Source of the DNA: Alphaproteobacteria bacterium
Lineage (GTDB): Bacteria; Pseudomonadota; Alphaproteobacteria; Micavibrionales; UBA2020
Length of the DNA stretch: 46,972 nt
Direction: 5' to 3'
NCBI GenBank assembly: GCA_030682495.1
Contig: JAUXOC010000088.1
Location: 1-46,972, forward strand
Program-made: the position numbers and the translations under genes
Shown here: one piece after another, positions 3,127 through 20,661 of the stretch
Position numbering within the stretch: position 1 is the stretch's first letter
Layout: every line of letters starts with the position of its first letter
The notes under the pieces: model-generated
The model's input: only the letters and a program-made list of their open reading frames with translations
The model's database searches: none
What the model was told of the DNA's origin: nothing

Positions 3127-3142
3127 TGGCACGGAGCTTGCA
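3127..3142 (+). promoter_or_regulatory. sigma-54 promoter of the flgB operon
   Basis: TGGCACG-GAGC-TTGCA is a near-perfect match to the -24/-12 consensus (TGGCACG-N4-TTGCW), with the GG and GC elements correctly spaced. Transcription would start near 3153, about 25 bases upstream of the flgB ATG. Sigma-54 control of early or middle basal-body operons is established in Caulobacter and other alphaproteobacteria, usually with a FlbD-type activator. I could not pick out an activator site. Confidence 0.85.
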
Positions 3143-6792: not shown

Positions 6793-9306
6793 GTGACCAG
6801 CGCGCCACAGCCCGAACACAGCGGTTTTTTTCTTGAAAAAAAGCCCGAACCGCCGTCACGCCAGAAAGAAGCCGCCGCGCGCAAATGGAAGAACGCGATG
6901 CTCTTCATCGCCAGCGCGGGTTACGGCTTTGTCATCTTGCTGGTTTTCTACATTCAGGCCTATGGCGGCATCCAGATGTCGATGTTCGCCATTTATCTTT
7001 ACGGCCTTTTGGGCGGCGTCTGTATCGTTTTGCTCAACAAGCTTTATACAAAAGTCGACCGCAGCCGCCAGATTTTGACCGAGGTGCTGGAAAAAAGCGC
7101 CGAAGCGCGCATCATCACCAGCCCCGATGACGACACCATCTATACCAACGAGAGGTTTAACAAACTGGTCGAAGGTCTGGGTACGCGCGACCTGCATGCT
7201 TTCACCCGCCTGTTCGAACATTCCGGCAAGATCGAAAAACAGCTGCACGATTTACAGACAAAAGCCGCGCCCGCCGGATCGGCCAGCACGGAAATCAATA
7301 CCCGCATCCGCGGCAAACAGACATGGTTTCAGGTCACCTGCCAGCACATCGTCGGCTGGAACGGCTATGTGCAGTGGCGTTTTGACGACATTACCCACCG
7401 CCACCAGATGGAATCCGCCATTCGCGAAGAGCGCGAGAAGCTGCGCGATTTCACCGATAACGCGCCCGTGGGGTTCTTTACCGTCGATGAAGACGGCAAG
7501 TTCCGTTTTGCCAACGATACGCTGCTGCGTCTTTTTGGCACCGACGACAAAACGCTGATTGGCAAACTGAAACTGCATGACTTTCTTGTCTCCCCGCCCG
7601 CCAAGGGGCGCCCTTTTGACTGTTTTGACGAAGGCGGCTATCACCAGCACGGGGAGCTTTTGATGAAAGGCGCCGGCGGCCGCGTCTTCAAGGCCGCGAT
7701 CACCCATTCCATCACCCGCGGCGAAGACGGCGGCGTGATTTCCCGCTCCATCGTCTATGACCTGACGACCGAACAAAAAATGCAGCAGGCGCTGCGCGAA
7801 TCCGAAGACCGTTTCGAACGCTTGTTCGAAGAAGCCCCTGTCGGCATCTGTCTTTTGAACGCGGCGGGCGTTATCAGCGATTGCAACCAGACACTGGCGG
7901 CGATGATGAAACTGCCCGTCAACGCGCTGAACGGCAAACCGCTTTTGTATTTCGTTGACGCCGAGGCGCAGGCGCGGGCGGAAGAATGGCTGAAAAATCT
8001 CTCGCGCGGCATTCGCGCGGAATCCTATATCGAAATTCCGCTGCGCGGATCGATTGAAATCGTGGCGCAGGTTTATGCGCGTAAATTCAAATCGGGCGAT
8101 AGTTTCGTTTTGCACTTCATCGATCTGACCGACCAGAAGAACCTTGAAAAACAATTCACCCAATCACAAAAAATGCAGGCGGTCGGCCAGCTGGCCGGCG
8201 GCATCGCGCACGACTTTAACAACCTGCTCACCGCCATGATCGGCTTTTGCGATCTGTTGCTGCTGCGGCACAAACCGGGCGACCCGTCTTTTGCCGACAT
8301 TATGCAGATCAAGCAAAACGCCAACCGCGCGGCAAACCTTGTGCGCCAGTTGCTCGCCTTCTCGCGCCAGCAGACGTTGCAACCGCGCGTTTTGGATATG
8401 ACTGACGTTTTAAGTGAACTATCGCATCTGCTGCGCCGGTTGATTGGCGCGAATATCGAACTGGATCTGACGCACGGCAATGACCTTGGCCTTATCAAGG
8501 CCGATCAGGGGCAGATGGATCAGGTTCTGATCAACCTTGTGGTCAATGCGCGCGACGCCATGCCGCAGGGCGGCAAGGTGAAAATCAAAACGCAAAACCT
8601 GTCAAACAAGCAGGAACTGCGGCTGTCCAATGACGACATCCTGCCTGCGGGCGAATGGGTGACGATTGCGGTTGAAGATACCGGCACGGGCATTCCGCCC
8701 GATATTCTGCCGCGCATCTTCGAGCCGTTCTTTTCGACCAAAGACGTCGGCGCGGGCACGGGGCTCGGCCTTGCCACCGTGCACGGCATCATCCACCAGA
8801 CCGGCGGCTTTATCTCGGTCAACAGCAACCTTGGCAAGGGCACAAGCTTTACCATCTATCTGCCCCGCTTCACCGATGTCGCAGGTACGCATAAAGCCGA
8901 AGTGATCGAAGAAAAACAATCGGCGAGTGACCTGACCGGATCGGCACGTATTTTGCTGGTTGAAGACGAAGACGCCGTGCGCACCTTCAGCGCGCGCGCG
9001 CTGTCGAACAAGGGCTATCAGGTGCTCGACGCACCGGGCGGCACGGCGGCGCTGAGACTGCTTGAAGAAAGCAATATCGTCCCCGAAATCCTGATTACCG
9101 ACGTTATGATGCCGGAAATGGACGGCACCACGCTGGCCAAACACGTCAAAGAAAAATATCCGCAGATCAAAATTATTTTTATCTCGGGCTATGCCGAAGA
9201 CAAGTTCAAAGAGCATCTGGGCGCCGACGTCTGGTTCCTGCCCAAGCCTTTTACGCTAAAGCAGCTGGCCACCAAGGTGAAAGAAGTGATCGACAGTTCG
9301 CTCTAA
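6793..9306 (+). CDS. cckA: CckA-type hybrid sensor histidine kinase
   Basis: 837 residues from a GTG with a good RBS (AAGGGAG). Two TM helices (about 36-54 and 61-82) are followed by three PAS-like segments (about 90-190, 210-330, 335-450), a HisKA domain with phospho-accepting His473 in GGIAHDFNNLLTAM, a HATPase domain (N box NLVVNARDAMP; DTGTGIPP; FSTKDVGAGTGLGL) and a C-terminal receiver with Asp770 in LITDVMMPEMDG. This architecture and the H-box wording match CckA, which in alphaproteobacteria drives the ChpT-CtrA phosphorelay for cell cycle, motility and development. Placement just after flhB supports the link to flagella. ChpT and CtrA are not in the window. Confidence 0.92.
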   Translation: MTSAPQPEHSGFFLEKKPEPPSRQKEAAARKWKNAMLFIASAGYGFVILLVFYIQAYGGIQMSMFAIYLYGLLGGVCIVLLNKLYTKVDRSRQILTEVLEKSAEARIITSPDDDTIYTNERFNKLVEGLGTRDLHAFTRLFEHSGKIEKQLHDLQTKAAPAGSASTEINTRIRGKQTWFQVTCQHIVGWNGYVQWRFDDITHRHQMESAIREEREKLRDFTDNAPVGFFTVDEDGKFRFANDTLLRLFGTDDKTLIGKLKLHDFLVSPPAKGRPFDCFDEGGYHQHGELLMKGAGGRVFKAAITHSITRGEDGGVISRSIVYDLTTEQKMQQALRESEDRFERLFEEAPVGICLLNAAGVISDCNQTLAAMMKLPVNALNGKPLLYFVDAEAQARAEEWLKNLSRGIRAESYIEIPLRGSIEIVAQVYARKFKSGDSFVLHFIDLTDQKNLEKQFTQSQKMQAVGQLAGGIAHDFNNLLTAMIGFCDLLLLRHKPGDPSFADIMQIKQNANRAANLVRQLLAFSRQQTLQPRVLDMTDVLSELSHLLRRLIGANIELDLTHGNDLGLIKADQGQMDQVLINLVVNARDAMPQGGKVKIKTQNLSNKQELRLSNDDILPAGEWVTIAVEDTGTGIPPDILPRIFEPFFSTKDVGAGTGLGLATVHGIIHQTGGFISVNSNLGKGTSFTIYLPRFTDVAGTHKAEVIEEKQSASDLTGSARILLVEDEDAVRTFSARALSNKGYQVLDAPGGTAALRLLEESNIVPEILITDVMMPEMDGTTLAKHVKEKYPQIKIIFISGYAEDKFKEHLGADVWFLPKPFTLKQLATKVKEVIDSSL

Positions 9307-18606: not shown

Positions 18607-18622
18607 TGGCACGTCTTTTGCG
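18607..18622 (+). promoter_or_regulatory. sigma-54-like promoter of the partner-switching module
   Basis: TGGCACG-TCTT-TTGCG has the full -24 element, correct N4 spacing and the GC of the -12 element; only the last base departs from TTGCW. It lies in the 69-base gap after slt and 56 bases before the ATG at 18663. The flgB operon has the same arrangement (51 bases from element to ATG). Confidence 0.7.
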
Positions 18623-18662
18623 TGTTTTATCCCGTTCACATTCCGTGAGGGGGATACGCCGC

Positions 18663-20294
18663 ATGCAGAAAATTCAGCTTCCACCCGTCCTCGCCGCCGC
18701 CGCGTCTGCGCCGCGCTGGCAGCGCAGTATAAGCGCGCCATCATATGCCTGCATGCCCGTTCTGCGCCGCGAAATGCGGCATTTTCTTGACCTTGCCGAG
18801 ACACCGCCCGCATACGCGGATGCTTTCTGTCTCTCTCTGTGCGAAGTGATTTCAAATATTGTAAAGCACCCCCCGAAAAAGACCACGGCGCTACACATCA
18901 CCTTTGATTTGCTGCCGCAATCGCTGCGGCTGGATATTGCAGATGACAGCACGCCTTTTGCGTCATTCGATGCAATTTGCAAGACCGCACAAAGCCGTCT
19001 GCGCTGTGCCGAAACGCTGCTTGAAAGCGGCTATGGGCTTGGCTGCATCCTTTCGCAGCATACGCAGGTATCCTATATAGATGCCGCGCGCAGTGCGGAT
19101 GGATGGAACCATTTCATCATCGAAGACAGGCTCTGCAGCGCGCCCGAGAAAAACTCCGCCTCAAGACAGCAACGCAAACCCGTGGTTTTTCTGGTCGACG
19201 ACGATGCAGGTGATCTGAAGGCGCATCACCGCATGCTGTCGGCGCGCTATGATGTTGTACCGCTCGCTGATGCGGCCTCGGCGCTGGCGCTGTTCCGGAC
19301 GCGGCGGCCGGATCTGGTGATTTCCGATTTGCACATGCCGCAGACCGATGGCGCGGCGCTGCGGCGACAGATTTCCGCGCTGCCCGACGGCGATCTGGTG
19401 CCCTTCGTCTTTTTGACTGCCTCCGCCGAGGGAATGAACGATAAAGGCATTTTGCGGCTGGGCATCGACGACTATCTACTCAAGCCTGTCACGCCGCAGG
19501 GGCTTGAACGCGTGGCGGAGCGTGTACTGGGTCGCCGCGAACAGCTGCACCGCGCCATCGAAGGACGATTTCACCGCGATCTGCAAAAATACCTGCACCC
19601 GCACCTGCCCGCACAATTCGGCCCATGGTCGATCACGACGCTGAACCGCATGGCAGATGCGGGCGGCGGCGATTTTACGCTGCACCACGAAACACGTGAA
19701 GGGCTGATGGCCGTGCTCGCCGATGTCATGGGGCACGGCACCGAAGCCAAATTTTTTGCCTATGCCTATGCCGGATATTTACGCAGCCTGTTTCGCGCGA
19801 CGTCAGAAAAATCGACAGGCATTAATACCGCCGTTTTTCTGCAGCACCTGTCGGATGCCGTCACGGACGATGATTTCCTCGACGGGACACTGCTGACCTG
19901 CCAGAGCTTTCATCTCTGCCCTACGGGAGAGGCGGGCATCGCCAGCGCCGGACACCCGCCGCCCCTGCTGCTGCGCGCCGATGGCACCGCAGCTGTTCTG
20001 CCTGCGGAAGGGCCGATCCCCGGCATGGCGGGGCATGCCGGATACCGCGAATACCGCATAAGGCTTTGCGCAGGCGATAAAATCTTTTTTGCCACGGACG
20101 GCTTTTTTGATGTTTTCGGACGGCAGGGCGGCACGTATGACGCGGACACGCTCTTGCGCTTGCTGCCGCCGCTTGCCGCACTTGATGCTGCGGCGGCGGC
20201 AGAAAAACTCTGGCACATCTTTGATAAATACCTGCAGCAAGACACCCGCGCACCCGACGACGCCACGCTTATTATCGCCGCTTATGGAGGATGA
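18663..20294 (+). CDS. HATPase-receiver-PP2C partner-switching regulator
   Basis: 543 residues from the ATG at 18663 (RBS GAGGGGG). Three domains. An RsbW-like HATPase at about 20-155 has N box CEVISNIVKH and G2-like SGYGLGCIL, though the G1 box reads DDSTPF without glycine. A receiver domain at about 169-290 has phospho-acceptor Asp222 in VISDLHMPQTDG. A SpoIIE/RsbU-type PP2C phosphatase at about 325-543 has DAGGGDF, LADVMGHG, FFATDGFFD and the final DDATLIIAAYGG. It should control the phosphorylation of the STAS protein encoded one base downstream. The order HATPase-REC-PP2C differs from HsbR of Pseudomonas (REC-PP2C-HATPase), which acts on flagellar anti-sigma control. Function here is inferred. 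Confidence 0.85.
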   Translation: MQKIQLPPVLAAAASAPRWQRSISAPSYACMPVLRREMRHFLDLAETPPAYADAFCLSLCEVISNIVKHPPKKTTALHITFDLLPQSLRLDIADDSTPFASFDAICKTAQSRLRCAETLLESGYGLGCILSQHTQVSYIDAARSADGWNHFIIEDRLCSAPEKNSASRQQRKPVVFLVDDDAGDLKAHHRMLSARYDVVPLADAASALALFRTRRPDLVISDLHMPQTDGAALRRQISALPDGDLVPFVFLTASAEGMNDKGILRLGIDDYLLKPVTPQGLERVAERVLGRREQLHRAIEGRFHRDLQKYLHPHLPAQFGPWSITTLNRMADAGGGDFTLHHETREGLMAVLADVMGHGTEAKFFAYAYAGYLRSLFRATSEKSTGINTAVFLQHLSDAVTDDDFLDGTLLTCQSFHLCPTGEAGIASAGHPPPLLLRADGTAAVLPAEGPIPGMAGHAGYREYRIRLCAGDKIFFATDGFFDVFGRQGGTYDADTLLRLLPPLAALDAAAAAEKLWHIFDKYLQQDTRAPDDATLIIAAYGG

Positions 20295-20295
20295 C

Positions 20296-20661
20296 ATGAA
20301 CATTAACAATATTTTTGAAATCCAGCCCGCAGCCGATTACACCCTCATCCGCTTTTACGGGTTTATCGATGCCTCGACCGTTCAGCAGATACGCCCCGCA
20401 CTACAGCGGCAATTGCCAGAGCATTCATCGAACCTGATTGTCGATATGCGCGAAGTCGGATTTTTGGACAGCCACGGTATCGGGCTCTTTGTCAGCCTGC
20501 TCAAACAGGCGCATAAAAACAAAGGCCGCCTCGCCTTCGCCGCCGCCAAAGGCCAGCCGTCATCGGTTTTGAAAATGGTGGGGTTCAACGGCGGACTGGT
20601 CAGCTATTGCCCGACGCTGAATGACGCATACGCCCTGTTTGCAAAAAACAGGGCAGTATGA
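20296..20661 (+). CDS. STAS-domain anti-sigma factor antagonist
   Basis: 121 residues. Single STAS domain of the SpoIIAA/RsbV type: LIRFYGFIDASTVQQIRPAL, then LIVDMREVGFLDSHGIGLFVSLLKQA. Ser59 in LDSHGIG is at the usual phosphorylation site. It would be phosphorylated by an RsbW-type kinase and dephosphorylated by the PP2C domain of the preceding gene, then bind its partner. Its ATG is one base after the previous stop, with RBS GGAGG inside the upstream gene, so expression is coupled. Confidence 0.92.
   Translation: MNINNIFEIQPAADYTLIRFYGFIDASTVQQIRPALQRQLPEHSSNLIVDMREVGFLDSHGIGLFVSLLKQAHKNKGRLAFAAAKGQPSSVLKMVGFNGGLVSYCPTLNDAYALFAKNRAV

Follow-up and report, generated by a model that had tools for sequence, protein, structure and literature searches.

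The window analysed here is a contig of 46,972 nucleotides (JAUXOC010000088.1, contig C36 of genome G000) from the alphaproteobacterial assembly GCA_030682495.1 (Micavibrionales, UBA2020), the genome of which comprises 2.5 Mb and is 99% complete. Positions 18,607–20,661 contain two adjacent genes on the forward strand with a sigma-54 promoter element ahead of them (Table 1). The first encodes a protein in which an RsbW-like ATPase domain (HATPase), a receiver domain (REC) and a PP2C phosphatase domain follow one another in that order, and the second, which starts one base beyond the stop codon of the first, encodes a single-domain STAS protein. The closest named records to the three-domain protein come from Micavibrio sp. 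UBA2020 and a metagenome-assembled genome of Rhodospirillaceae, at ~61% identity. The two proteins are likely to form a bifunctional partner switch of the kind known from SypE and SypA of Vibrio fischeri, setting the phosphorylation of Ser59 in the STAS protein under the control of sigma-54.

Table 1. Coordinates of the partner-switch genes, their domains and the promoter element in the window.
Feature	Position	Strand	Basis and remarks
Sigma-54 −24/−12 element, TGGCACG-N4-TTGC	18607..18621	+	Conserved upstream of orthologues; rpoN encoded
SypE-type response regulator, HATPase (RsbW-like)-REC-PP2C, 543 aa	18663..20294	+	Pfam, alignment, predicted structure
RsbW/SpoIIAB-like HATPase domain, aa 18–156	18714..19130	+	Alignment, profile, fold; E61, N65, D94, G123 and G125 invariant; Ser in place of the G1 Gly
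Receiver domain, aa 175–282	19185..19508	+	Pfam, alignment; phospho-acceptor Asp222, Lys274
Long helical linker joining receiver to phosphatase, aa 278–310	19494..19592	+	Predicted full-length model; residues 298–301 of low confidence
PP2C/SpoIIE phosphatase domain, aa 346–539	19698..20279	+	Pfam; Asp354, 479, 532 and 533 inside, conserved Asp337 just N-terminal
STAS protein (SypA/RsbV-like), 121 aa	20296..20661	+	Pfam, alignment; phosphorylatable Ser59 in F56-L-D58-S59

The domain order and coordinates given in a preliminary description of this DNA are supported by Pfam searches with the translation of 18663–20291, in which Response_reg is matched at residues 175–282 (E 5.9e-17) and SpoIIE/PP2C at 346–539 (E 1.9e-29). 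The match to HATPase_c_2 at 32–138 (E 1.5e-5) scores 25.5 bits, slightly under the cut-off of 27.4, and the N-terminal domain was therefore tested further by profile and structure. With a profile of 13 homologous N-termini the top solved relative is RsbW (6m36, E 4.7e-8), with SpoIIAB weaker, and SpoIIAB and RsbW rank above the histidine kinases as matches to the predicted structure (pLDDT 87). Taken together, the profile and the model indicate that the N-terminal domain has the fold of the RsbW/SpoIIAB kinase family, as the preliminary description had expected. All 13 of the aligned homologues, which are 27–61% identical to the window protein, match the HATPase, receiver and PP2C families.

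The residues expected of each activity are retained in that alignment. In the kinase domain these are the N-box residues E61 and N65, the G1 aspartate D94 and the G2 glycines G123 and G125; in the receiver they are D179, D180, D222 and K274, so that the predicted phospho-acceptor Asp222 is in place and invariant; and in the phosphatase they are D337, D354, D479, D532 and D533. The downstream protein matches STAS over 20296–20658 (E 4.3e-14), and its residues D25, F56, D58 and S59 are invariant, including the serine singled out at the outset as the phosphorylation site. No second STAS protein of the same family was found in the genome. The G1 box of the kinase domain departs from the usual form and reads DDSTPF. 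The missing glycine had been noticed previously, and serine is present in its place in every member of the family clade. The box reads DNGDE (L032) and DDGFA (L033) in remoter relatives, and DDGSPF or DDGASF in proteins where the kinase domain is encoded separately.

The preliminary description had regarded the architecture as unusual, a permuted form of HsbR. This does not hold, because SypE has been described with the order HATPase-REC-PP2C (PMC10120452, PMC3610818, PMC4517449), while that of HsbR is REC-PP2C-HATPase (PMC6482189); the window protein is thus of the SypE type. The target of SypE is the STAS protein SypA. Unphosphorylated SypE phosphorylates Ser56 of SypA, rendering it inactive, and signalling turns SypE into a phosphatase (PMC4517449, PMC3610818, PMC10120452). 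N52 of SypE is essential (PMC3610818). The counterparts of this N-box asparagine and of E48 are the invariant N65 and E61. The residues of the modelled SypE–SypA interface (E48 and R22 of SypE; D22, F53 and S56 of SypA) correspond to E61 and R35, and to D25, F56 and S59, all of which are invariant or at least 90% conserved, the residues having been equated by their spacing from the motifs rather than by alignment with SypE. A connection with sigma-54 transcription is a further likeness, as biofilm formation by the syp locus is sigma-54 dependent according to the title of a reference cited in PMC10120452. The pairs differ in that the window genes belong to an alphaproteobacterium of the Micavibrionaceae, have the STAS gene directly downstream, carry serine for glycine in G1, and are not part of a polysaccharide locus; their neighbours encode an SLT transglycosylase, DUF4159/BatA and DUF58 proteins. 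Since the exopolysaccharide setting of syp is lacking, the pair is assigned to the same type and not to the syp locus.

Other systems are less close. HsbR–HsbA of Pseudomonas aeruginosa and CrsR–CrsA of Shewanella have the same three domains and a STAS partner, with an output in the motile/sessile decision, but the order of the domains is REC-PP2C-HATPase and they act through FlgM/FliA and RpoS. The partner switch RbaY–RbaW–RbaV of Rhodobacter capsulatus is also from an alphaproteobacterium and is built of REC-PP2C, HATPase and STAS components, but these are three separate proteins, and in our tree those REC-PP2C proteins that lack a HATPase lie apart from the fused group. Among the Syp-like polysaccharide loci, that of V. 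parahaemolyticus (scv) has no SypE orthologue (PMC8941931).

The promoter element TGGCACGTCTTTTGC begins 56 bases 5′ of the ATG (18663); its counterpart at flgB is located at 3127, 51 bases ahead of the start codon. The window contains 12 matches with up to two mismatches where 12.8 are expected, which is not beyond chance, and the strict pattern occurs 11 times in the genome and five times in a reversed control; this is too weak alone, so that a comparison between relatives is needed. The exact TGGCACG-N4-TTGC stands directly 5′ of the orthologue in seven loci from five diverged lineages (expected frequency ~3e-5 per 100 bp). The same 11 fixed bases occupy the same place with different spacers: TCTT in the window, GCGT in L021/L022, CGAA in L023, ATAA in L025/L026 and ATCA in L028. 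There is no equally good match elsewhere in those orthologue loci of 5–20 kb, and the DNA upstream of the element is coding. In the tree the carriers occur in both branches of the family's earliest divergence, so the element was probably present in the family ancestor and lost twice. The genome encodes rpoN. With its GG-N10-GC core in a TGGCACR-N4-TTGC context and its conservation between relatives, the element makes a convincing sigma-54 promoter, of a type common to flagellar and nitrogen genes. This upholds the earlier suggestion of a sigma-54-like promoter resembling that of flgB; flgH has one of the same type.

Exact and well-placed sites occur in the window genome upstream of flgB, flgH, a transglycosylase gene and the three-domain gene. 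A congener (G002) has four exact sites in 921 kb, each of them ahead of an open reading frame; the frames encode PII (glnB/K), a hook-like flagellar protein (named by reading), a receiver protein and the three-domain protein. As the same strict motif precedes the PII gene, sigma-54 alone does not imply the flagellum. Six strong sigma-54 activators are encoded in the window genome. One lies within a fliI/fliG/fliF cluster on contig C81 and resembles FlbD (named by reading). Another, on contig C89, is LuxO/SypG-like and has 44–48% identity to activators that adjoin other fused proteins; its gene (L095:6859-10380) has receiver and histidine kinase genes beside it and lies in divergent orientation to a cluster resembling type I secretion genes. 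In the leader of the module (18622–18662) a short hairpin might form in four of the five lineages, with differing sequences (z-scores from −1.3 to −2.6, and one of +1.4). As the energies are only slightly better than those of shuffled sequences, no hairpin between the −12 element and the ATG is claimed.

The module was found in 17 of the 114 genomes of the order that were searched: 11 of the 18 members of the family (counting that of the window, and with one module fragmentary) and six further genomes, in two of which the HATPase is a separate gene. A scan of contigs with a single query sequence returned only two congeners. Within the family the STAS gene is adjacent as a rule. A lytic transglycosylase (SLT) gene lies upstream in most, and convergent DUF4159/BatA and DUF58 genes follow; the conservation of these flanks supports vertical descent, and this pattern of neighbours speaks for inheritance of the module within the Micavibrionaceae. 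In two other genomes (L031, L032) the genes after the pair encode a regulator of the LuxR type and a hybrid kinase. Full-length fused proteins are rare in the wider phylum, occurring in two of ~400 genomes besides that of the window, and both adjoin polysaccharide genes or genes for a sigma-54 activator and hybrid kinase. One homologue (L075, 32% identity) is encoded on a Plesiomonas plasmid, in an exopolysaccharide locus that also includes a STAS gene. Another, alphaproteobacterial locus (L093:2536-12086) contains genes for STAS, SLBB-like and tyrosine-kinase-like proteins, a sigma-54 activator, a second STAS protein, HATPase-REC-PP2C and a hybrid kinase (some named by reading), and is apparently a Syp-like regulatory set. 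L075 and L093 thus share HATPase-REC-PP2C and STAS with the window and differ in that their modules are embedded among exopolysaccharide genes. In the tree, in which the Plesiomonas homologue served as proxy for SypE, the window protein groups with the three-domain homologues of polysaccharide loci, apart from the REC-PP2C proteins, with support of 100/100. A split HATPase and REC-PP2C pair nests inside the fused group, and several branches are long.

By analogy with SypE, the RsbW-like domain would phosphorylate Ser59 of the STAS protein encoded by the next gene and the PP2C domain would take the phosphate off again, the chemistry of both steps being borrowed from that system. The balance would shift when a histidine kinase phosphorylates Asp222, towards the phosphatase if the direction is that of SypE. 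The pair would be transcribed from the sigma-54 promoter under an enhancer-binding activator, which may be the FlbD or the LuxO/SypG-like protein, and the unphosphorylated STAS protein would act on a partner other than FlgM. The downstream target of SypA itself is still described as unknown (PMC10120452). Elsewhere in the window a CckA-like hybrid histidine kinase is encoded directly after flhB (6793–9306, forward strand; 91.7% identical to the congener copy), and is a possible phosphodonor for nearby receivers.

Several observations weigh against assignment to the SypE/SypA type. The replacement of the G1 glycine throughout the family makes ATP binding uncertain; orthology to SypE itself rests on the architecture and the Plesiomonas proxy; the sigma-54 element is absent from two family members (L024, L029) and from other families; and in the Micavibrionaceae the module has no polysaccharide genes beside it. 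In addition the genome encodes a stand-alone RsbW-like protein of 194 aa with an intact DPGSGF box (L070:1268-1852, contig C85) that could be a second, or the real, kinase for the STAS protein. On this basis the N-terminal domain might be catalytically inactive and serve to hold the STAS protein or a sigma factor, binding its partner rather than phosphorylating it, as the preliminary description had proposed, with the stand-alone protein as the kinase. Such an arrangement seems unlikely. The C85 gene has no partner-switch genes adjoining it and no link to the module. Down to 27% identity there is no change in the N-box Glu and Asn, the G1 Asp or the pair of G2 glycines, and the N-box Asn is required in SypE (PMC3610818) and in other such kinases. 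The invariance of the N-box pair argues for selection on catalysis, and because E61 and N65 are retained the missing glycine is weak evidence against it.

A connection with the flagellum was proposed through FlgM, by analogy with HsbA. The promoter type common to flgB and flgH would suit such feedback, as would a locus from a remote relative within the order (L035:2279-6836), where HATPase and REC-PP2C are encoded by adjacent genes beside flagellin and fliD; this is a direct neighbourhood link between a switch of the same kind and the flagellum. However, neither FlgM nor FliA was detected in the searches of the 99% complete window genome (the best match to TIGR02479 is RpoH-like, with 81 of 189.6 bits), although FlgM is short and fast-diverging, so that a diverged copy could have been missed. 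As the domain order is also not that of HsbR, this route is rejected as highly improbable. A narrower form of the SypE/SypA reading, compatible with it, is a motility or attack-phase switch in which FlbD and sigma-54 drive the pair together with the flagellum and the STAS protein acts at attachment on a partner other than FlgM, such as a flagellar regulator, a cyclic-di-GMP enzyme or another sigma factor. The likeness of the promoter to those of flgB and flgH, the FlbD-like activator within the flagellar cluster and the flagellin neighbourhood of L035 are consistent with this, as is the finding that Micavibrio expresses its flagellar genes during attack and shuts them off once attached (PMC3189940). 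Set against it are the use of sigma-54 in nitrogen control and the absence of flagellar genes among the neighbours, which are the lytic transglycosylase and BatA/DUF58 genes. Moreover nearly every relative is flagellate, with FliG present in 105 of the 114, and the module occurs in only 17, placing it outside the core flagellar programme, so that it would be an accessory rather than a core regulator. Co-occurrence of module and flagella was dropped as a test: two module-bearing congeners seemed to lack FliG, but ~900 kb of G002 contains flgB, flgC, fliE, flhB, fliL, fliM and flgH, and the absence of FliG in the congener is an assembly gap. A role in motility or attachment is plausible but unproven, and this specific form of it is possible while falling short of probable.

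A switch of this kind is already known from the control of biofilm formation in Vibrio; what is new is a pair of the SypE–SypA type apart from both polysaccharide genes and FlgM/FliA. Because the two genes remain side by side away from polysaccharide loci, and the genome is compact and yielded neither FlgM nor FliA, there are fewer possible targets, and the pair provides a natural contrast to the known systems. A literature search found no report linking Micavibrio with partner switching. It is conceivable, though we think it improbable in this full form, that these flagellate epibiotic predators have placed a SypE-type switch under the flagellar sigma-54 programme, with the STAS protein governing the passage from swimming to prey attachment through a new target. 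If the pair does act between attack and attachment in Micavibrio-type predators, it would offer a regulatory handle on the attachment step.
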